DNA from: Alphaproteobacteria bacterium
GTDB taxonomy: Bacteria; Pseudomonadota; Alphaproteobacteria; GCA-2731375
Length of the DNA: 40,595 bases
Direction of reading: 5' to 3'
Assembly: GCA_016869175.1 (NCBI GenBank)
Contig: VGEV01000014.1
Coordinates: forward strand, 1-40,595
Shown: positions 13,932 to 26,819 of the stretch, one piece after another
Layout: each line of letters starts with the position of its first letter
Numbering within the stretch: the stretch's first letter is position 1
Position numbers and translations under genes: made by a program
The notes under the pieces: generated by a model
Told to the model about the DNA's origin: nothing
Database searches by the model: none
What the model saw: only the letters and a program-made list of their open reading frames with translations

Positions 13932-14887
13932 GCCGAGCGTCCGCGCTGGCGGGCCCGCTCGGCGCGGCGTTCGGCCAGCCATTCGGCGGGCGCCGCGCGC
14001 AGGCCCAGGATGTGACAGATCGCGTAGGCCAGATCGGCGCGATTGAGGGTATAGAAATGAAACTCCTCGATGCCCGCCTCGAGCAGCCGACGGCATTGCT
14101 CGGCGGCGACGGTGGCAGCCACCAGCTTGCGGGTCTCCGGGTCGTCGTCGAGGCCCTCGAACAGATGCGCAAGCCAGGCCGGCACGCTGGCGCCGCATTG
14201 CCGGCTGAACCGCACCAGCTGGGCGAAGTTGGTGACCGGCAGGATGCCGGGCACGATCGGCACGCCGATGCCGGCCGCGCGGGCGCGGTCAAGGAACCGC
14301 AGCAGCACGTCCGGATCGAAGAAGAACTGGGTGATCGCCCGGCTGGCGCCATTGCCCAGCTTGCGCTTCAGGTTGTCCAGATCGGCGCGGCTGGAACCCG
14401 CTTCCGGATGGATCTCGGGATAGGCCGCGACCGAGATCTCGAAATCGCCCAGCGCCCGCAAGCCCGCCACGAGTTCCCCGGCATCGCGATAGCCATCGGG
14501 ATGGGGGCGGAAGCCGCCCTCGCCTTCGGGCGGGTCGCCGCGGAGGGCGACGACATGCGTGATGCCGGCGGCGAGGTAGCGCCCGGCCACCGCGTCGACC
14601 TCCGCTCGGCTGGCGCCAACGCACGTCAAGTGCGCCGCCGGCGTCAGGCTGGACCGCTCGCGGATGCGCACCACCGTCTGGTGCGTGCGCTCACGCGTGC
14701 TGCCGCCGGCACCATAGGTGACGGAGACGAAGCGCGGCTGCAGCGGCTCCAACCGCTCGACCGCGCGCCACAATTGCTCAGCCATTTGTTCGGTCTTGGG
14801 CGGAAAGAACTCGAACGACACCTGCAGGCCGCCGCCGACCGCGCGGCCCTGCGGCGGGGCGGAAGCGGGCCGCGTGGCACTGCTCAC
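13928..14887 (-). CDS. metF: Methylenetetrahydrofolate reductase
   Basis: 319 residues. The core begins VSFEFFPPKTEQM (FEFFPPK carries the catalytic Glu). FVSVTYGAGGSTRERT, ALRGDPPEG, VAAYPEIHPEA and RAITQFFFDPDVLLRFLDRA are standard MetF motifs for FAD and folate binding. It makes 5-methyltetrahydrofolate, the direct substrate of the adjacent metH. A Pro/Ala-rich leader of about 20 residues precedes the core; a slightly later start is possible. It overlaps both sahR and metH by four bases, so the three genes are one coupled operon. Confidence 0.97.
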   Translation of the reverse strand: MSSATRPASAPPQGRAVGGGLQVSFEFFPPKTEQMAEQLWRAVERLEPLQPRFVSVTYGAGGSTRERTHQTVVRIRERSSLTPAAHLTCVGASRAEVDAVAGRYLAAGITHVVALRGDPPEGEGGFRPHPDGYRDAGELVAGLRALGDFEISVAAYPEIHPEAGSSRADLDNLKRKLGNGASRAITQFFFDPDVLLRFLDRARAAGIGVPIVPGILPVTNFAQLVRFSRQCGASVPAWLAHLFEGLDDDPETRKLVAATVAAEQCRRLLEAGIEEFHFYTLNRADLAYAICHILGLRAAPAEWLAERRAERARQRGRSA

Positions 14888-15858
14888 AGCACCGCCCCTT
14901 CGACGGCCGCCGGGCGGGTCGGCGGCGGCTGCACGCCGCGCCCCGCCAGCCAGATGCTGACGGTCAACGGGTCGCCCGCCAAATGACGGGTCACCGCCGG
15001 CCGCAAGCCGACCGCCGCCAGCCAGCGTTCCATGTCGGCCGCCGCGAAGCCGAGCCAGCGGTGGCGATGCTCGCCTCGCAGATAGTCCAGTTCATGCGGG
15101 GAGAAATCCACCGCCAGCAGTCGACCGCCCGGACGCAGCAGGCGGGCGGCCTCCGCCAGCGCCCAGCGCGGTTCCTCGGCATAGCGCAGAACCTGGTGCA
15201 ACAGCACCAGGTCGCAGCAGGCATTGGGCAGCGCCAGGTTGTACATGTCGCCATGGCGGACCTGGCAGTTGCGCAGCCCCCGGTCGGTCAGCCGCGACCG
15301 CGCCACCCGAAGCATGTCGTGGCTGAGGTCGATGCCCAGGCCGTGCCGGACGCGCGAGGCGAATATCTCCAGCATGCGGCCCGTGCCGGTGCCGATATCG
15401 AGCAATTGCTCGATCGGCTTGTCGCCCACGAGATCCAGCATCGCCCGCTCCACCTCAGCCTCCGGCACGTAGAGCGAGCGGATTTCCGCCCACCGGTTGG
15501 CATTGGCGCGGAAATACTCCGCCGCCGCCTGCGCGCGCGCTTGCTTGATCGCGGCCAACCGATGTCGGTCGAGCGCGGCTTGGACATCCTCAGCCGGCAT
15601 CAAGTCGACCAGTTGCCGGGCCAACCGCCCCGCCTCACCCTGTTCCGCCAACCGGTACATGGCCCAAGCGCCCTCCCGGTGGCGTTCGAGCAGGCCGGCC
15701 TCGCACAGCAGCTTCAGATGGCGCGACACCCGCGGCTGGCTCTGCCCGAGAATCTGCACGAGTTCGCTCGCGGTCAGCTCGCCGTCCGCGGTTAGGCCGA
15801 GAATTCTCAACCGCGTCGATTCGGCCGCGGCGCGCAGACCCAGCAGCAGGCTGTTCAC
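14884..15858 (-). CDS. sahR: ArsR-family regulator with methyltransferase-like sensor domain (SahR type)
   Basis: 324 residues from GTG. An ArsR-type winged helix occupies residues 1-75 (SELVQILGQSQPRVSRHLKLLCEAGLL), followed by a helical linker and a class I SAM-methyltransferase fold with motif I DIGTGTG at 154-160. This architecture in front of metF-metH matches SahR, a repressor described in proteobacteria that senses S-adenosylhomocysteine through a methylase-like domain and controls SAM-cycle genes. The GTG start is preceded by AAGGAGGT; an ATG eight codons upstream lies before that ribosome-binding site and is less likely. Its own promoter overlaps a near-palindromic operator, so autoregulation is expected. 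A catalytic methyltransferase role cannot be excluded. Confidence 0.88.
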   Translation of the reverse strand: MNSLLLGLRAAAESTRLRILGLTADGELTASELVQILGQSQPRVSRHLKLLCEAGLLERHREGAWAMYRLAEQGEAGRLARQLVDLMPAEDVQAALDRHRLAAIKQARAQAAAEYFRANANRWAEIRSLYVPEAEVERAMLDLVGDKPIEQLLDIGTGTGRMLEIFASRVRHGLGIDLSHDMLRVARSRLTDRGLRNCQVRHGDMYNLALPNACCDLVLLHQVLRYAEEPRWALAEAARLLRPGGRLLAVDFSPHELDYLRGEHRHRWLGFAAADMERWLAAVGLRPAVTRHLAGDPLTVSIWLAGRGVQPPPTRPAAVEGAVL

Positions 15859-17921: not shown

Positions 17922-19604
17922 TCAGGCCCGTACCAGGGGCTTGTACTTGATGCGGTGCGGCTGGTCTGCCGCCTCGCCCAGCCGGGCCTGCCGGTCGACT
18001 TCGTAGGCCTGGTAGTTGCCCTCGAACCACTCCACATGGCTGTCGCCCTCGAACGCGAGGATGTGCGTGGCGATGCGGTCCAGGAACCAGCGGTCGTGGC
18101 TGATCACCATGACGGTGCCGGCGAATTCCAGCAGCGCCTCTTCCAGCGCGCGCAACGTGTCGACATCGAGATCGTTGGTCGGCTCGTCGAGCAAGACCAG
18201 GTTGGCGCCCATCTTGAGCATCTTGGCGAGATGCACGCGGTTGCGCTCGCCGCCCGAAAGTTGGCCGACCGGCTTCTGTTGGTCCGCCCCGCGGAAGCCG
18301 AACCACGAGCAGTAGGCGCGGCTCGCCACCTTGCGCTTGCCGAGTTCCAGTTCGTCGGCCCCGCCGGAGATCTCCTGCCAGACCGACTTCTTGGCATCCA
18401 GCGCGTCGCGGCTCTGGTCGACGTAGCCGATGACGACGCTGTCACCCAGCCGCAGACTGCCGCTGTCGGGTTTGTCCTCGCCCAGCAGCATGCGGAAGAA
18501 CGTCGTCTTGCCGGCGCCGTTCGGACCGATGATGCCGACGATCGCGCCCGGCGGCACCTTGCAGTTCAGGCCCTCGATCAACAGGCGCTCGCCGTAGCCC
18601 TTGTTCAGGCCGTTGACCTCCAGCACCAAGCCGCCCAGCCGGGGCCCTGGCGGGATGTAGATCTGCGTGTTCGCCTGCGTGCGCTCGGCCTGTTCCGAAA
18701 GCAATTGTTCGTAGGCGGTGATGCGCGCCTTGCTCTTGGCTTGGCGGGCTCGGGGCGACTGACGAATCCATTCCAGTTCCAGCGCCAGCGTGCGCTGCCG
18801 CGCCTCTTCCTGCTTTTCCTCCTGTTCCAGCCGCTTCTGCTTCTGTTCCAGCCAGCCGGAATAGTTGCCTTGGAACGGCATGCCACGGCCGCGATCCATT
18901 TCCAGGATCCAACCCGCCACGTTGTCGAGGAAATACCGGTCGTGCGTCACCGCCACGACAGTGCCGGGATAGTCCTGCAAGTGACGCTCCAACCATGCCA
19001 CGGATTCCGCGTCCAGATGGTTGGTCGGCTCGTCCAGCAGCAGCAAGTCGGCGCGCGACAGCAGCAGCCGACAGAGCGCCACTCGCCGCTTCTCGCCGCC
19101 CGACAGCTTGGTCACCTCCGCATCGCCCGGCGGGCAACGCAGCGCGTCCAGCGCGATCTCGACCTTGCGCTCCAGCTCCCAACCGTCCGCGGCATCAATC
19201 TTTTCCTGCAACTCAGCCTGCTCGGCGATCAATGCGTTCATGGCCTCGTCGTCCAGCGGTTCGGCGAACTTGGCATTGACCTGCTCGAAGCGGTCGAGCA
19301 GCGACTTCACTTCCGCCACCCCCTGCATCACGTTGCCCAGCACGTCGCGCTTAAGGTCGAGTTCCGGTTCCTGCGGCAGGAAGCCGACCTTGGCGCCTTC
19401 CGCCGCCCAGGCCTCGCCGGCGATGTCCTTTTCCAGGCCGGCCATGACGCGCAGCAACGTCGACTTGCCCGAACCGTTGGGTCCGATCACCCCGATCTTG
19501 GCCCCGGGCAGGAACGCCAGGGTAATGCCGCGCAGCACTTCGCGCCCACCGGACAGCACCTTGCGCAGGTCGCGCATGACGTAGATGTATTGGTAAGAGG
19601 CCAT
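17922..19604 (-). CDS. ettA: Energy-dependent translational throttle protein EttA (ABC-F ATPase)
   Basis: 560 residues, the usual EttA length. Two ABC cassettes in tandem: Walker A GPNGSGKST at 41-49 and GPNGAGKTT in the second half; signatures LSGGEKRR and LSGGERNR; Walker B LLLLDEPTNHLD and LVLLDEPTNDLD. Between them is the charged P-site tRNA-interaction linker (KQKRLEQEEKQEE). EttA binds the ribosomal E site and gates the first peptide bond according to the ATP/ADP ratio. The ATG was chosen at MASYQYIYVM, the conserved family start; the longer open frame has no homology. It is transcribed away from the exonuclease gene, 82 bases apart. Confidence 0.97.
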   Translation of the reverse strand: MASYQYIYVMRDLRKVLSGGREVLRGITLAFLPGAKIGVIGPNGSGKSTLLRVMAGLEKDIAGEAWAAEGAKVGFLPQEPELDLKRDVLGNVMQGVAEVKSLLDRFEQVNAKFAEPLDDEAMNALIAEQAELQEKIDAADGWELERKVEIALDALRCPPGDAEVTKLSGGEKRRVALCRLLLSRADLLLLDEPTNHLDAESVAWLERHLQDYPGTVVAVTHDRYFLDNVAGWILEMDRGRGMPFQGNYSGWLEQKQKRLEQEEKQEEARQRTLALELEWIRQSPRARQAKSKARITAYEQLLSEQAERTQANTQIYIPPGPRLGGLVLEVNGLNKGYGERLLIEGLNCKVPPGAIVGIIGPNGAGKTTFFRMLLGEDKPDSGSLRLGDSVVIGYVDQSRDALDAKKSVWQEISGGADELELGKRKVASRAYCSWFGFRGADQQKPVGQLSGGERNRVHLAKMLKMGANLVLLDEPTNDLDVDTLRALEEALLEFAGTVMVISHDRWFLDRIATHILAFEGDSHVEWFEGNYQAYEVDRQARLGEAADQPHRIKYKPLVRA

Positions 19605-19686
19605 GAACCGCTCCGCCTTCGCCGGCCGCCTTACTAGCGGACACCCCCCCTTCCCGCAACGCCCGACGCGCAGGCAGAATGAGGCT

Positions 19687-20394
19687 ATGAGCGAGACTGG
19701 CCGAAAGCCGCGGGTGGCGGGGTTGTTGCGGCTCTTTCGCGGCCTTGTGCCGGGCAATGTCGCGGCCGCCGCCGGACGGCGGGCGATCCCGGCGTTGCCG
19801 CCCAGCCCGCGATACGACAGGCGTCAGATCGAGGCGGCCAGCTTCGTTGTGTTCGATCTGGAAACCACCGGCCTCGATCCCCAGCGCGGCGACGAGATCG
19901 TGGAGATCGGCGCGGTCCGCATCGAGCCCGGACTGCGGTTGGAGGAGATCGCGTTCGACCTGTTGTTGAACCCCGGCCGACGCATCCCGCCGCGCGCCAC
20001 CCGGGTGCACGGCATCAGCGATGCCATGGTGGCAGGCCGGCCGGGTGTGCACGAGGGGCTGGCAAGGTTTCGCGCCTTTGTCGGCGAGGCGGTGCTCGCG
20101 GCTCACAGCGCCGACTTGGATCTGGGCTTCCTCAGGCATCACCCGCGTTTCGGCTTCGGCCAGCTCGGCCAATCGCTCGACACCTTGGGCCTGAGCCGCG
20201 CCTTGCACCCGGGCCATCGCGACCACAGTCTGGATGCCTGCCTAGCCCGCCATGCCATCGCGTTGCCCAAGCGTCATCGCGCGTTGCCCGACGCGAGAGC
20301 GACGGCCCAATTGCTGCTGGCGCTATTACCGCTGGCGCGAGAGCGCGGTGCGCGCACCGTGGCCGACCTGCAGCGACTGGGACGGGTGGGTTAG
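19687..20394 (+). CDS. DnaQ-like 3'-5' exonuclease (DEDDh)
   Basis: 235 residues. A basic N-terminal helix of about 45 residues precedes the exonuclease fold. Metal and catalytic residues are visible: Asp57 and Glu59 in FDLETTGLDP, an Asp in AHSADLDLGFL (about 143-145), and His197 and Asp202 in the final DEDDh motif (HRALPDA). RVHGISDAMV is also typical. This is the short stand-alone exonuclease often found beside CBS/DUF294 nucleotidyltransferase and acetate-type symporter genes, rather than the polymerase III proofreading subunit. Its biological substrate is unknown. Here it converges with the DUF294 gene across repeat copy 2. Confidence 0.87.
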   Translation: MSETGRKPRVAGLLRLFRGLVPGNVAAAAGRRAIPALPPSPRYDRRQIEAASFVVFDLETTGLDPQRGDEIVEIGAVRIEPGLRLEEIAFDLLLNPGRRIPPRATRVHGISDAMVAGRPGVHEGLARFRAFVGEAVLAAHSADLDLGFLRHHPRFGFGQLGQSLDTLGLSRALHPGHRDHSLDACLARHAIALPKRHRALPDARATAQLLLALLPLARERGARTVADLQRLGRVG

Positions 20395-20397
20395 GGC

Positions 20398-20529
20398 ACT
20401 TTCCGTTCCAAGCGAACCGGCAGGTTCGGTCTGAACGGAAGCCATTGCCCCACAGCCCTGACCACGGCGAGGTCGGCTCCGATCCGATGGGCCGCGGATC
20501 GCGATGCCATCGGATCGGACACCGCGCTA
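20398..20529 (-). repeat. Intergenic palindromic repeat, copy 2 (inverted relative to copy 1)
   Basis: Two strong hairpins fill the gap between the convergent exonuclease and DUF294 genes. Hairpin A: outer arms TTCCGTTC (20401-20408) and GAACGGAA (20433-20440), inner arms CGAACC (20413-20418) and GGTTCG (20423-20428) around GGCA. Hairpin B: perfect 13-bp arms TCCGATCCGATGG (20478-20490) and CCATCGGATCGGA (20507-20519). On the opposite strand the B-then-A order matches copies 1 and 3. It may act as a terminator for both genes. Confidence 0.85.
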
Positions 20530-21810
20530 GAACAGATTGCCGGTCAGATCGGCGTGCACTCGTCGGCGGAACCGGCGCACGATCTGCAAAGCGACGGTCA
20601 GCCGTTCCCGGACCCGGCTGCGCAGGTTCGAAGCCGGCACCAGATTGCCCGGCTCGCGGCCAGCCGCGATGTCGCGTCGCTGTTGCTGCAGCAGGACCGT
20701 TGCGAGCACGTCCAGCGCGCTCGCGATGTCGTCGAACTCCGCTTCAGCGAGCTTGCCTCGAACCTTCAATTCGGCGAGCCGCGTCGGCGTCTCGGCAATG
20801 CCGTGCATCAGCGCCAGCAGGCGCACAGCGTCGACCAGTCGACCGAGGCCGCCCAGCTTCAGGTCGACAGCACCACAACGGTCCGACGCACTGTCCCGCA
20901 TTACCAGGCGGCCGAAGAAGCCGAGCGCGACGTCGTACTCCTCCTCGCGCCGCGCCAGCGCCCCCAGGAACGAGCAGTTGCCTCGCAGCCGCCGGGTCAC
21001 ATGATCGCGCAACGCCGCGGCCAGGCCGGCATCGCCAAACACGCATTGGAAATCGAAGAAGATGTCGGCATTGAGCAAGGCTGCCGGACTGCGCTTGGCC
21101 AGCCACAGGTCAAGCTGGTGGCACCATTGCGAGAGACTCTTGCGCCAGAGCGGGTGGTGCGCCATCACCCCGCCTCGGCAGAGTTCGATGCCATGCTCAG
21201 ACATGCGCTGATTGAGCACCTCGGCGAAGCCGCGGAACCAGCCGTCCACCCGGTCATGCGCCGCATCCGGATAGTCGGCCAGGATCAGGCCGTTGTCCTG
21301 GTCGGCGCCCAGCAGGCTCTCGCCCCGCCCGCCCGAACCCATGACCAGCAGCGCGAAGCCGACCAGCGGTGGGCCGTGCTCGGCCAACAGGGTCCGGGCG
21401 GTGGCGGCATAACGGTCGTTGTTGAGTGCTGCGATCAGCGCCTGCACGTCGGCGACCCCGGCCCCGTCCCGCATTACTTCAGCGCTCAGTTCGGCGATGG
21501 CGCGCCGGCGTTGGGTGGCACCGGCCCGATCCGCGGCATGGATTTGCCGAACGCGCTCCAGCATTCCGGGGGCGGCAGCCGCAAGCGCGGCGTCGAGCCG
21601 CAACAGACCAATGGCGCGGCCCGCGGCATCCAGCACGGGCAGGTGCCGGCGTCCCATCTGACGCATCAGGGCAATGGCGCTGTACAGGCGTGCCTCGGCC
21701 GCCACCGTGTCGACCGGCCGGCTCATCACCTGGGCGATCGGCAGGCCCGCGCCGACGCGCAGCGCCACCCGGCGGGGGCCGGTCACCTCCACCGGCGCTT
21801 GTGCCGGCAT
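20527..21810 (-). CDS. CBS-domain/DUF294 putative nucleotidyltransferase, N-terminally truncated
   Basis: 427 residues. Residues about 22-90 look like the second CBS module of a pair (IAQVMSRPVDTV, then RRHLPVLDAAGRAIGLL). The nucleotidyltransferase motif is GSGGRGES (158-165) with D170-Q-D172, followed by the DUF294 C-terminal helical region to residue 427. Full-length relatives, as I know them, usually have a cyclic-nucleotide-binding domain and a first CBS module in front, giving about 600 residues or more. Both are absent, and the frame meets a stop 28 bases upstream of this ATG, inside sequence belonging to a symporter gene on the other strand. So the gene is probably a deletion product, though its catalytic half is intact. 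The substrate is unknown. Confidence 0.8.
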   Translation of the reverse strand: MPAQAPVEVTGPRRVALRVGAGLPIAQVMSRPVDTVAAEARLYSAIALMRQMGRRHLPVLDAAGRAIGLLRLDAALAAAAPGMLERVRQIHAADRAGATQRRRAIAELSAEVMRDGAGVADVQALIAALNNDRYAATARTLLAEHGPPLVGFALLVMGSGGRGESLLGADQDNGLILADYPDAAHDRVDGWFRGFAEVLNQRMSEHGIELCRGGVMAHHPLWRKSLSQWCHQLDLWLAKRSPAALLNADIFFDFQCVFGDAGLAAALRDHVTRRLRGNCSFLGALARREEEYDVALGFFGRLVMRDSASDRCGAVDLKLGGLGRLVDAVRLLALMHGIAETPTRLAELKVRGKLAEAEFDDIASALDVLATVLLQQQRRDIAAGREPGNLVPASNLRSRVRERLTVALQIVRRFRRRVHADLTGNLF

Positions 21811-22201
21811 GATCGTCGGCTTCAGCGTCTGCCTGTTCTATCTGGTCGGCACGCAATACTACCCCGGAGAATGGGTAGGCACCTTCGGCACCGAGCAATC
21901 GGTGCAGGTGGTGGCCGAGGCGGAGACCAAGCGTGACGCCGCGCTGAAGGCCGCCAAGGAAGACGCGCAGCGGAAGGCGGCGCAGGATGCCTACTATGCC
22001 GTCGCCCGGCCGTTGGCGCATTGGTGGGGCATCCGCAACATTTCCTGCGCCATTTTCGGTCTGCCGCTGGCATTCCTGGTGACTTGGCTGGTGAGCCTGA
22101 TGACCGCGGCGCCGTCGCGCGAGATGCAGGAATTCATCGATTCCGTGCGCGTGCCCAGGGGCACGGTCAAGGCGCTCGCCGGTGCCGAAGTGAAGGAATG
22201 A
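21800..22201 (+). pseudogene. C-terminal remnant of a sodium:solute symporter (VC_2705/ActP-like)
   Basis: Translation from the ATG at 21809 gives 130 residues: a transmembrane helix (GMIVGFSVCLFYLVGT), a polar Lys/Ala-rich loop, a second helix (ISCAIFGLPLAFLVTWLVSLMT) and the tail APSREMQEFIDSVRVPRG. This is the ending of acetate-type SSS symporters, which have about 550-600 residues and 13 helices. Everything before the last two helices is gone; upstream bases instead encode the DUF294 protein on the other strand. The piece could not transport alone, and no promoter remains in front of it. Confidence 0.8.
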
Positions 22202-22241
22202 GTGCAACCCGCAAACGACGGCATCGCTGGTGTGAGTGTGA

Positions 22242-22263
22242 ACAGGGGTCGCGCGACCCCTGT
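22242..22263. repeat. Perfect 22-bp palindrome
   Basis: ACAGGGGTCGC joined to its own reverse complement, with no spacer. It lies between the symporter remnant stop and the following membrane-protein gene. As RNA it would form a very stable GC-rich stem, as expected of a REP unit or a terminator without a T-run; as DNA it could be a dimeric protein site. Confidence 0.9.
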
Positions 22264-22292
22264 CCCGTTTCGTTGCGAGGTCGGCGCGCCAC

Positions 22293-22617
22293 ATGACGCC
22301 AGACAATATCTGGTGGGACTACTGGTATCTGCACCTGCCGAACTTCGCCCTGTCGGCGGTCATGTACACGATGCTCGGCCGCTTCCTGCTGGGCTTCGTG
22401 CTGCCGGCGGACTCCAGCAACTACATCTGGCGCTGGTTCTGCCGGCTGACCGAGCCGTTCCTGCGGGCGGTGGCCTTCATCACGCCGCTGGCGGCGCCCT
22501 CGTCTGCTGCTGTTGCCGATTGGCGCCGCCTGGCTGTTCACCATCCGCGTCGTCCTTGGCATCGCCCTGATCGCCGCCGGCCTGGGGCCCAGCCTGCAGC
22601 CCCTGGCGCCGAACTGA
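22293..22617 (+). pseudogene. YggT-like small membrane protein, interrupted by a one-base frameshift
   Basis: The frame from ATG 22293 reads well through HLPNFALSAVMYTMLGRFLL and IWRWFCRLTEPFLRAVAFITPLAAP, then turns into Arg/Pro/His-rich sequence with no membrane character. Shifting by one base at the CCC run 22497-22499 restores a hydrophobic continuation (RLLLLPIGAAWLFTIRVVLG) ending in APN and a TGA at 22615. The intact protein would be about 107 residues with three or so helices, like the YggT-type proteins I associate with acetate-type symporter loci. Either the gene carries a one-base insertion or there is a sequencing error in the C run. A 213-residue fusion with the next gene would be an artefact of this shift. 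Confidence 0.8.
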
Positions 22618-22628
22618 ACCGGCCGCCG

Positions 22629-22934
22629 ATGCGCGAACCGCTGTTGCTGGCCACCGTTGCCCTCGCCATCCTGAACGGCCTGGGCTCGCCTTTGCTGATC
22701 GTCGTCTGGCATCTGGCGCCCTACTGGCTCCCCGCCGCCGTGTTCGGCTCGCCGCAGCTTGCGTTCTACCTTTCCTCGCTGGCTGTCTCCGGCCTGACCT
22801 TGATGCTGAGCGGCGTGCCGGCGGCGCTCTATGAGCGGTTCGCCGGAGCCAGCGAGTCCACCACCGCCTCGCTCGCGATCTGGTGCGCCAGCGCGGCCCT
22901 GCTCAGCCATCCGGCGCTCGGCCGCTTGGGCTAG
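22629..22934 (+). CDS. Small conserved-looking membrane protein, unknown function
   Basis: 101 residues from the ATG at 22629, eleven bases after the corrected stop of the YggT-like gene. Three hydrophobic segments are clear: LLLATVALAILNGLGSPLLIVVWHLA, AFYLSSLAVSGLTLMLSGVPAALY and LAIWCASAALLSHPALG. It probably resides in the inner membrane. I do not recognise a family. Its placement beside the symporter remnant and the YggT-like gene suggests it belonged to the same locus. No strong ribosome-binding site is seen, so translation may depend on coupling to the preceding gene. Confidence 0.65.
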   Translation: MREPLLLATVALAILNGLGSPLLIVVWHLAPYWLPAAVFGSPQLAFYLSSLAVSGLTLMLSGVPAALYERFAGASESTTASLAIWCASAALLSHPALGRLG

Positions 22935-22966
22935 AAAGGCCGGCGGCAAGAGGGCACCCAGCTGCC

Positions 22967-23341
22967 TTGAACCCGATCGAACACATCGAGGACTGCGCCA
23001 ATCGGTCGATCCGCAGGGCACTCGGCTTTGCCCTGCTGGCGATCTGGACTTTCATGGTCGGGCTCAGCGCCGAGGCGCAGTTGGCGGTACGGGCAGGCGC
23101 CATTCTCTGCAACCTGGCTTGGCTGATCCTGATCGCAATGAGCTGGCGCGCGCCCGGTCGCCCCTACCGGCGGACCGAGGTGTGGTTGATGCTGGACAGG
23201 CAGCACGATTTGCCGGAGGCCAGGGCGCAAGCCACCATCGGCGGCATCCTCAGCGAACGCTATCGCTGGCATGCCGGGTTGGCGGCCGGTGTCGCCGGCG
23301 CGCTCTGGCTGGTCGACTTCGCCCTGCTGCTCATCGTCTGA
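22967..23341 (+). CDS. Hypothetical membrane protein, unknown function
   Basis: 124 residues from a TTG start; the first in-frame ATG would delete the first hydrophobic segment, and an AGAGGG lies about 12 bases before the TTG. Hydrophobic segments are at about 19-35 (ALGFALLAIWTFMVGLS), 45-60 (AILCNLAWLILIAMS) and 105-123 (GVAGALWLVDFALLLIV). The loop between segments two and three is charged (RRTEVWLMLDRQHDLPEARAQATIGG). I do not recognise the family. It runs in the same direction as the two small membrane genes upstream and converges with the large oxidoreductase gene four bases later. Confidence 0.7.
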   Translation: MNPIEHIEDCANRSIRRALGFALLAIWTFMVGLSAEAQLAVRAGAILCNLAWLILIAMSWRAPGRPYRRTEVWLMLDRQHDLPEARAQATIGGILSERYRWHAGLAAGVAGALWLVDFALLLIV

Positions 23342-23345
23342 CGCG

Positions 23346-26300
23346 CTATTGCGCGGCGCGCGCCCTGGAGCGCGGCGCGTCGAGTGCCGCCAGCAACCGC
23401 GTTTCCTCGGCCTTGGCCGCCTTGACATTGGCCTCCTTGACATGGCCGAAGCCACGGATACGGTCCGGCAGTTCGGCAAGTGCCAGGCAGAGGCCGTGGT
23501 TCTCGCTGTCGAGCCGCTGCAGCAGCCGCTCCAGCAGGCGTTCGTAGTCGGCAATCAGCCGCCGCTCTTGCCGGCGCTCGGCGGTCCGGCCGAACGGATC
23601 GAACGCGGTGCCGCGCAGCCCCTTCAGCTTCGCCAGCAAGCGCAAGATCGGCAGCAGCCAGGCGCCGAACTCGCGCTTCTGCAACTGGCCGGTCGCGGGA
23701 TCGCGGCGGGCCAGCAGCGGCGGCGCCAGGTGGAAGCTCAGTTTGAAACCGCCGGCAAATTGCCGATCCAGCTTGGCGCGGAAGGCCGGGTCGGCGTGCA
23801 GCCGGGCGACCTCGTACTCGTCCTTGTAGGCCAGCAGCTTGAAATAGTTGCGCGCCACCGCCTCGGCCAGACCGGCACGGCCCTTGGCACGCGTCTGCTC
23901 GGCCTCCGCCACCCGGGCGACCATCGCCCGGTAGCGCGCGGCATAGGCGTCGTCCTGGTAACCGGTCAGGAACTCGGCGCGACGCGCCACCAGACCGGCG
24001 AGATCGTCGGCCGGCGCCTGCCCCGGCGCCCGCAAGACCGGCCTGGCCATCGCTTCCACCCGCTGCGGATCGTGCGCCGCCAGCCGGCCGAACGAGAACG
24101 CCCGCTTGTTGCTCTCCACCGCGACGCCATTCAGTTCGATGGCGGCAAACAAGGCCTCGCGCCCGACCGGCAACAGTCCCTTCTGGCAGGCATGGCCCAA
24201 CAGGAACAGGTTGGCAGCGATGGCATCGCCCAGAAGCGCGGTGGCCAGCTGGGTGGCATCGACGAAGTGCGCGGTTGCGCTGGCCTCGCGGACCTTGCGC
24301 ATCATCGCCGCGGCAGACAGGTCGAGCGCGTTGTTACGCACGAAAGCCGCGGGCGGCACGACGTGGCTGTTGACCACCCCCACGCTGCCTCCCGACGCCA
24401 GCTTGGACAGGCCGTCAGGCCCCGCCGCCACCACGATGTCGCAGCCCAGCAGCAGCTTCGCGCCGCCGGTCGCGATGCGTACCGCGTGCAGATCGTCCGC
24501 CCGGTCGGCGATCCGCACATGGCTCATCACCGCGCCATTCTTCTGGGCGAGACCGGCCTGGTCGAGCACCGAGACGCCCCTGCCCTCAAGATGCGCCGCC
24601 ATGCCGAGCAGCGCGCCCACCGTCACTACGCCGGTGCCGCCAATGCCGGTGATCAGGATGCCGTAGGGCTCGCCGGTCGGCGCGCGCGCCGGTTCCGGTA
24701 GGTCGGCGAACAGCTCCACGCCCAGCGGTCCGTTGCCGCCGGCGGCGCGGCGCGGCTCGGCCCCGTGCACCGTCACGAAACTCGGACAAAAGCCCTTCAG
24801 GCACGAGAAATCCTTGTTGCAGTTCGACTGGTCGATCTGCCGCTTGCTTCCAAACTCGGTGTCGAGCGGCTGCACGGAAACGCAGTTCGACTGCACCGAG
24901 CAATCGCCGCAGCCCTCGCAGACCAGGTCGTTGATGAACACCCGCTTGGGCGGGTCGGGGAAAAGGCCGCGCTTGCGCCGTCGGCGCTTTTCCGCAGCGC
25001 AGGTTTGATCGTAGATCAGGCAGCTGACGCCGGGGGTGGCGCGGAGTTGGCGCTGGATCGCGTCCAGTTCGTCGCGATGATGCAGCGTGACACCCGCGGC
25101 CCAATCCGTGCCGATCGGATACTTGCCGGGCTCGTCGCTCACCACCACGACCCGCGCCGCGCCCTCGGCCGCCACCTGCCGGCTGATATCGGCCGGCGTC
25201 AGTTGGCCTTCCACCGGCTGGCCGCCGGTCATGGCCACCGCGTCGTTATAAAGAATCTTGTAGGTGATGTTCACCTTCGCGGCGATCGCGGCACGGATGG
25301 CCATCAGGCCGGAATGGAAATAGGTGCCGTCGCCCAGATTCTGGAACATGTGCGGCGTGCTTACGAACGGCGCCTGGCCGATCCAGGTGACACCCTCCGC
25401 CCCCATATGCGAGACCGTCTCGGTGCGCCGATGCTCCATCCACAGCGCCATGCCGTGGCAGCCGATGCCCGCCATCGCCCGGCTGCCCTCGGGCAATTGC
25501 GTCGAGGTGTTGTGCGGGCAACCGGAACAGAAGAACGGGCTGCGGGCGATGGTGGGCGGCGCGCCCTTGGCCAACGCCTCGATCTGTTCGATGCGTGCGA
25601 GGCGCTGGTTGAACTCGGACAATTCCGCGAAGCGGCGCAGCCGGCCGGCCAGCGCGCGCGCCACGCCGCCCGGCGTGATCTCGCCGAATTCCGGCAGCAG
25701 CATGCGCCCTTCCTCGTCGCTCTTGCCGACGATGACGCGGGGCGCGCCGGCGCGGCCATAGAGCAGCTTCTTGAGCTGGTCTTCCAGCAGCGGCCGCTTC
25801 TCCTCCACCACCAGGATCTCTTCCAGGCCTTGAGCAAACTCCAGCACGGTCTTGGGCTCCAGCGGCCAGACCAGCGCCACCTTCAGCACCCGCAGGCCAA
25901 GCGAGCGCGCCGCCGCCTCGTCGATGCCGAGTTCCTCGAGCGCCTGGCGCAGGTCGAGATAGGCCTTGCCGGTGGCGACGATGCCGAGCCTGGCCTTGGG
26001 GCTGTCGAGCACCACGCGGTCGAAGCGGTTGGCGCGCGCGAAGGCCTGCGCCGCCGGCAGGCGATAGCGCAGCAGCAATTCCTCCTGCACCATCGGCTGA
26101 TCGGGATAGCGGATATTGAGGCCGCCCGGGGGCAGTTCGAAGCCTTCCGGCTCGGCGAACGCGAGCCGCGCCGACTTAAGCGACACCGAGCCCGAACTCT
26201 CCACGGTGTCGCCGACGCACTTGAAGCCGACCCAGTTGCCGGAATAGCGCGACAGAGCGAAGCCCAACAGGCCGAAATCGAGATATTCCTGCACGCCGGC

Positions 26301-26819
26301 CGGGTTGATCACCGGGATCGAGGCGCTGATGAAAGCGTATTCGCTCTGGTGCGGCAGGGTCGACGATTTGCAACCATGGTCGTCGCCCGCCAGCACCAGC
26401 ACGCCACCATGCTTGGCCGTGCCGGCCAAGTTGCCATGCTTCAAGGCATCGCCCGACCGGTCTACCCCCGGACCCTTGCCGTACCAAAGCGCGAACACCC
26501 CGTCATACTTGGCGCCCTGCCACAGGTTGACCTGCTGCGTGCCCCACACGGCGGTGGCGGCCAGGTCTTCGTTGACACCCGACTGGAAATGGATGTGGTG
26601 CTGGCGCAGATGCTTGCCCGCCGCCCACAGCGCGGCATCGTAGGTGCCAAGCGGCGAGCCGCGATAGCCGGAGATGAAGCCGGCGGTATTGAGGCCGGCT
26701 GCCACGTCGCGCTGGCGCTGCAGCATCGGCAGGCGCACCAGCGCTTGGATGCCGGTCAGGTAGGCGCGGCCCGCGGACGCGGTGTACTTGTCGTCGAGCG
26801 TGACTTTGGCAAGCTTCAT
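23346..26819 (-). CDS. Indolepyruvate:ferredoxin oxidoreductase family protein, fused alpha and beta subunits
   Basis: 1157 residues, the length of fused IorA-IorB proteins. The N-terminal pyruvate-ferredoxin-type domain begins with TGIQALVRLPMLQRQRDVAAGLNTAGFISGYRGSPLG, read here in parts. A thiamine-diphosphate region lies near residue 451 (GIGCHGMALWMEH). The ferredoxin-like cluster ligands start near residue 631 (CEGCGDC, then SNCV and SCLKGFCP). The gamma-type domain begins around GILITGIGGTGVVTVGALLG. Such enzymes oxidatively decarboxylate aryl-pyruvates from aromatic amino acids to acyl-CoA and reduce ferredoxin; in aerobes the electron acceptor is less certain. It is monocistronic here, with a good -10 box upstream. 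Confidence 0.95.
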   Translation of the reverse strand: MKLAKVTLDDKYTASAGRAYLTGIQALVRLPMLQRQRDVAAGLNTAGFISGYRGSPLGTYDAALWAAGKHLRQHHIHFQSGVNEDLAATAVWGTQQVNLWQGAKYDGVFALWYGKGPGVDRSGDALKHGNLAGTAKHGGVLVLAGDDHGCKSSTLPHQSEYAFISASIPVINPAGVQEYLDFGLLGFALSRYSGNWVGFKCVGDTVESSGSVSLKSARLAFAEPEGFELPPGGLNIRYPDQPMVQEELLLRYRLPAAQAFARANRFDRVVLDSPKARLGIVATGKAYLDLRQALEELGIDEAAARSLGLRVLKVALVWPLEPKTVLEFAQGLEEILVVEEKRPLLEDQLKKLLYGRAGAPRVIVGKSDEEGRMLLPEFGEITPGGVARALAGRLRRFAELSEFNQRLARIEQIEALAKGAPPTIARSPFFCSGCPHNTSTQLPEGSRAMAGIGCHGMALWMEHRRTETVSHMGAEGVTWIGQAPFVSTPHMFQNLGDGTYFHSGLMAIRAAIAAKVNITYKILYNDAVAMTGGQPVEGQLTPADISRQVAAEGAARVVVVSDEPGKYPIGTDWAAGVTLHHRDELDAIQRQLRATPGVSCLIYDQTCAAEKRRRRKRGLFPDPPKRVFINDLVCEGCGDCSVQSNCVSVQPLDTEFGSKRQIDQSNCNKDFSCLKGFCPSFVTVHGAEPRRAAGGNGPLGVELFADLPEPARAPTGEPYGILITGIGGTGVVTVGALLGMAAHLEGRGVSVLDQAGLAQKNGAVMSHVRIADRADDLHAVRIATGGAKLLLGCDIVVAAGPDGLSKLASGGSVGVVNSHVVPPAAFVRNNALDLSAAAMMRKVREASATAHFVDATQLATALLGDAIAANLFLLGHACQKGLLPVGREALFAAIELNGVAVESNKRAFSFGRLAAHDPQRVEAMARPVLRAPGQAPADDLAGLVARRAEFLTGYQDDAYAARYRAMVARVAEAEQTRAKGRAGLAEAVARNYFKLLAYKDEYEVARLHADPAFRAKLDRQFAGGFKLSFHLAPPLLARRDPATGQLQKREFGAWLLPILRLLAKLKGLRGTAFDPFGRTAERRQERRLIADYERLLERLLQRLDSENHGLCLALAELPDRIRGFGHVKEANVKAAKAEETRLLAALDAPRSRARAAQ

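Follow-up and report, generated by a model that had tools for sequence, protein, structure and literature searches.

A probable deletion scar joins a truncated CBS-DUF294 gene to the 3' end of a divergent VC_2705-type sodium:solute symporter gene

Symporters of the VC_2705 family (TIGR03648) occur with a small DUF4212 subunit (TIGR03647), and SSS proteins in general have roughly 13 helices according to a review of these transporters in which VC2705 and its small subunit are not mentioned (PMC7918813). A second family consists of putative nucleotidyltransferases with the domain order CBS-CBS-DUF294-DUF294_C. The window, by which we mean the whole stretch of 40,595 nucleotides analysed here, is contig C14 of the draft assembly G000 (3.97 Mb, 285 contigs; completeness 100%, contamination 0.13%) and contains parts of both systems. 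Compared with the TIGR03648/TIGR03647 system, it lacks ~85% of the symporter and the whole small subunit, while the remaining piece is 68% identical to the family member at locus L111 and the downstream genes are alike. Compared with the nucleotidyltransferases, the encoded protein keeps the catalytic and C-terminal domains and lacks the first CBS domain. The best explanation, which we regard as highly probable, is an illegitimate deletion of ~2.8-3.0 kb that fused the DUF294 gene to the symporter tail. A deletion scar had been noticed here from the raw sequence in a preliminary description, the essentials of which were correct and are supported by intact relatives.

Homologous loci were drawn from a comparison set of 79 DUF294 loci, the yield of a search through 84,980 species genomes, and the 75 loci not cut by contig ends were used for comparison of frame lengths. 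L111 and L123 show in full a 487-aa CBS-CBS-DUF294-DUF294_C gene divergent from a DUF4212-symporter-orfA-orfB-orfC operon, and L098 and L139 (the latter ending early at a contig edge) show the same divergent DUF294 / DUF4212-symporter layout in part, so that four intact loci display the arrangement predicted in advance of this comparison. With 745 and 691 bits against a cut-off of 320.75, the L111 and L123 symporters belong to TIGR03648; the small L111 protein belongs to TIGR03647, and DUF4212 is present at all four loci. In the intact loci ~0.8-0.9 kb of intergenic DNA separates the DUF4212 start from the DUF294 frame start, and the two positions brought together in the window lie 2833, 3014, 3006 and 2941 bp apart. 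The window lacks the first of the two CBS domains, the intergenic DNA, the DUF4212 gene and ~525 of the 618-641 symporter codons; the symporter tail, orfA, orfB and orfC are retained in the order seen in L111. This missing span of 2.83-3.01 kb agrees with the original proposal of one deletion of ~2-3 kb that took both N-termini, the shared promoter and the small subunit. Relatives with the same short forms had been named as the observation that would speak against a deletion, and the short DUF294 form was found in 0 of the 75 uncut loci, all of which have frames of at least 487 aa.

The truncated CBS-DUF294-DUF294_C gene (20527..21810, minus strand) starts at an ATG at 21810-21808; its product, 427 aa long, comprises a CBS domain (residues 26-76), DUF294 (104-242) and DUF294_C (281-420). 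DUF294 scores 120.3 bits (PF03445, cut-off 21) and DUF294_C 105.9 bits (PF10335, cut-off 22.5), and a single CBS domain (PF00571) is found where all four relatives tested have two, which agrees with the description of the gene as reduced to its second CBS module and catalytic half. The missing part amounts to one CBS domain of ~65-75 residues. The same description also expected an N-terminal cyclic-nucleotide-binding domain in proteins of this kind; no such domain is found in the window protein or in its near homologues of 486-500 aa, which carry two CBS domains, and its loss by the deletion was rejected. Residues 1-11/12, read from the antisense strand of symporter DNA, are not homologous to the relatives. 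In an AlphaFold2 model, the catalytic half, in which the motif GSGGRGE...DQD is kept, is predicted with confidence (block pLDDT means mostly 80-96), the CBS domain moderately (~61-77), and residues 1-17 as disordered (pLDDT <50), which fits the non-homologous residues and a short stretch beside them. The frame is still open, and the nucleotidyltransferase half that it encodes, together with a single CBS domain, is probably able to fold. The top solved folds for this model are the two halves of the glutamine synthetase adenylyltransferase GlnE (PDB 3k7d and 1v4a; E 3.7e-7 and 8.8e-7), a resemblance in fold only, with identity of just 13-16%. GlnE is not known to contain CBS domains.

In a tree of the DUF294 proteins, the smallest well-supported group with the window protein also contains L080, L111, L123 and L069, and the first three of these have a TIGR03648-type operon. 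The end branch of the window protein is long (1.01 against a median of 0.28); its use as proof of relaxed selection was set aside because the tree neighbours are also long (0.48-2.03).

On the plus strand, the 3' remnant of the VC_2705-type symporter gene (21785..22201) covers the last ~138 codons, with a frame of 130 aa from the first ATG (21809-22201). The claim that this is the 130-residue tail of a sodium:solute symporter is borne out by a match to the very end of TIGR03648 (model positions 496-547, the last 52 of 547) and by alignment of the entire stretch to the C-termini of intact symporters. A domain search of both products had been suggested in the preliminary description, and it recovered DUF294 in Pfam; the remnant gave no Pfam match in either a 130-aa or a 175-aa version, so its family is visible through NCBIfam and pairwise alignment instead. 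With 42 bits against TIGR03648 (31.6 in the genome search) and a full-length cut-off of 320.75, the remnant is a pseudogene fragment of this family and not a member. Two hydrophobic segments remain, corresponding to ~2 of the roughly 13 SSS helices. Between these last two segments, the remnant has a hydrophilic loop of 35-40 residues rich in Ala, Lys and Glu (21895-22010), which is absent from L111; L080 has another insertion at the same place.

The joint was narrowed to ~21775-21784, the ~10 bases between the edges of DUF294 and symporter homology, which lies inside the interval of 21775-21815 first given for the scar. On one side, DUF294 homology runs to R13-R14 (codons up to base 21774), with relatives reading ..TEQDVxRRVxxR.. 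where the window reads VEVTGPRRVALR. On the other, symporter homology begins at codon 21785 (ACC), possibly 21782, before the first ATG of the remnant, and the window sequence V-T-S-T-G-A-C-A-G-M aligns to K-R-T-T-A-A-G-A-V-A-G-M and similar stretches in relatives. A repeat search around the joint found no direct or inverted repeat spanning it. As the nearest intact homologues are only 43-48% identical to the window in DUF294, the exact parent sequence and any microhomology at the joint cannot be read.

The DUF294 ATG (21810-21808) and the plus-strand ATG (21809-21811) have bases 21809-21810 in common, and the coordinates reported earlier for these shared bases agree. Overlapping ATGs of this kind form the palindrome CATG, which occurs 192 times in the window, slightly below chance, and the plus-strand ATG lies inside the former symporter gene, where it specifies the mostly conserved Met of the motif GAxAGM. 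When the joint was slid along intact symporter genes, the DUF294 frame gained some in-frame start in 52-57% of positions and an ATG start in 19-29%. Given the palindrome and the 52-57% chance of an in-frame start, the overlap needs no explanation, and a designed feature was rejected, with the start position at chance level.

The proposed course is a single illegitimate deletion of ~2.8-3.0 kb, although several nested events would look alike. Reading leftwards, its left end would lie immediately past the first CBS domain in the CBS-CBS-DUF294 gene, and its right end at codon ~525 of the divergent VC_2705-type symporter gene. Everything between these ends would have gone, from the first CBS domain through the intergenic (promoter) region shared by the two genes to the small subunit DUF4212 and ~85% of the symporter. 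The DUF294 frame would now start in former symporter antisense DNA without its native promoter. The CBS pair in such DUF294 proteins normally binds a regulatory nucleotide; the truncated protein, if made, would lack this pair and be altered in its regulation, and poor expression or a lack of regulation would be expected of a single-CBS DUF294 protein whose gene has been cut off from its native promoter. A scan of 21300-23400 for promoters and terminators found no site and is of little weight.

Judged by its sequence, the remnant could not transport, and symporter transport would be lost. No other SSF-family protein was found in G000, and an acetate transporter of the SatP type (PF01184), which might have stood in for the symporter, was found neither there nor in the 20 relatives searched. 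Acetate-type uptake as the lost function is an unproven guess, since the VC_2705 subfamily was assigned by model alone.

Downstream of the remnant follow three genes for small membrane proteins, all on the plus strand. The first, the weakly YGGT-like orfA (22293..22617), is interrupted by a frameshift (net +1) at ~22488-22503, beyond which its second half is read in the following frame until the stop codon at 22615-22617. The second, orfB (22629..22934), has an open frame, as does orfC (22883..23341), in which homology begins at ~22970 and the true start is uncertain. A frameshift scan of the window parts covered by relatives' proteins yielded, besides orfA, one weak colinear case near 14.8-14.9 kb, where weak homology to an L084 protein shifts frame (14718-15276) and which may be a further frameshift. 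As frameshifts are rare in the window, that of orfA looks like decay. With the symporter truncated and orfA frameshifted, the operon probably no longer functions in transport.

The region is flanked by an indolepyruvate ferredoxin oxidoreductase-like gene (23346..26819, minus strand), a name we presume from its sequence and a gene with homologues found elsewhere, and on the other side of DUF294 by a conserved neighbour, a 3'-5' exonuclease (RNase_T; 19603..20394, plus strand). In genomes of the same family (L023-L029 and L031), the order is exonuclease, DUF294, oxidoreductase, with no symporter operon between DUF294 and the oxidoreductase gene. The DUF294 proteins of these genomes lie far from that of the window in the tree, possibly by in-place replacement or as a long-branch effect.

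The remnant offers some indication of age. Its 68% identity to L111, taken over conserved columns, matches or exceeds that of every intact symporter pair compared apart from L098/L139 (76%), and in GC3 (0.83) the remnant resembles neighbouring genes, so the loss looks young. On these sequence measures, the deletion would be recent or the remnant still under constraint, and a misassembly would look alike here.

The main competitor, raised from the start as an alternative, is an assembly artefact in which flanks were misjoined or a strain mixture collapsed, with ~3 kb dropped from a living genome that is intact. The assembly is indeed a draft in 285 contigs, in which the short form may also represent a minority variant, and both halves look undrifted, as expected from a misjoin and a young deletion alike. 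Against this, neither PF00474 (SSF) nor PF13937 (DUF4212) has a match anywhere in G000, and a search of the whole assembly with the L111 symporter and TIGR03648 returned the remnant as sole match, so the missing DNA is on no other contig despite 100% completeness. Shared sequence at the joint is at most ~10 bases, with no spanning repeat, which is shorter than usual assembly overlaps, and orfA, in the same operon, carries a frameshift of its own that suggests decay. An assembly join is thus unlikely, with a small doubt remaining.

It is considerably less probable that the shortened DUF294 product and the membrane fragment of 130 aa are functional and selected, be it as a constitutive enzyme with a single CBS domain or as a small membrane partner. 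Neither frame is interrupted and their GC3 resembles that of other genes, the catalytic motif is intact in a half with a confident predicted fold, and the symporter remnant is undrifted; however, open frames are also expected after a young deletion, none of the 75 uncut loci has the short form, and the DUF294 start is placed no better than by chance. The disordered first 17 residues, the frameshift in orfA and, for what little it weighs, the lack of a promoter-like site also argue against function. It seems equally improbable that the deletion itself was selected, by removing CBS sensor and promoter together and leaving a constitutive DUF294 nucleotidyltransferase uncoupled from its usual transporter. 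That the short forms are old and native to the lineage, with no deletion here, is scarcely credible: same-family genomes searched do lack a TIGR03648 symporter above cut-off, and several have DUF294 beside the oxidoreductase with no operon, but their DUF294 frames are at least 489 aa, the member tested has two CBS domains, and the window still has the symporter tail and orfA-orfC in L111 order.

Beyond the deletion, a sodium:solute symporter lies within 3 kb of the DUF294 gene in 21 of the 79 loci, and this recurrent divergent pairing is a lead on what the uncharacterised DUF294 enzymes may regulate. The symporters so paired (e.g. at L107, L091, L116 and L069) are mostly of another kind, 22-27% identical to the VC_2705 type and in most cases ~650-715 aa in length. 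Among the papers searched, none named both DUF294 and CrbS.

The locus provides a clean example of operon loss, as both halves of the joint are readable against intact relatives to ~10 bases. The deletion scar itself is ordinary, though unusually well documented. With ordinary gene loss by illegitimate deletion, the window shares two truncated genes, a sharp joint without a long repeat and neighbouring decay; there is no essential difference, and the window is unusually clear in that both halves belong to conserved families.
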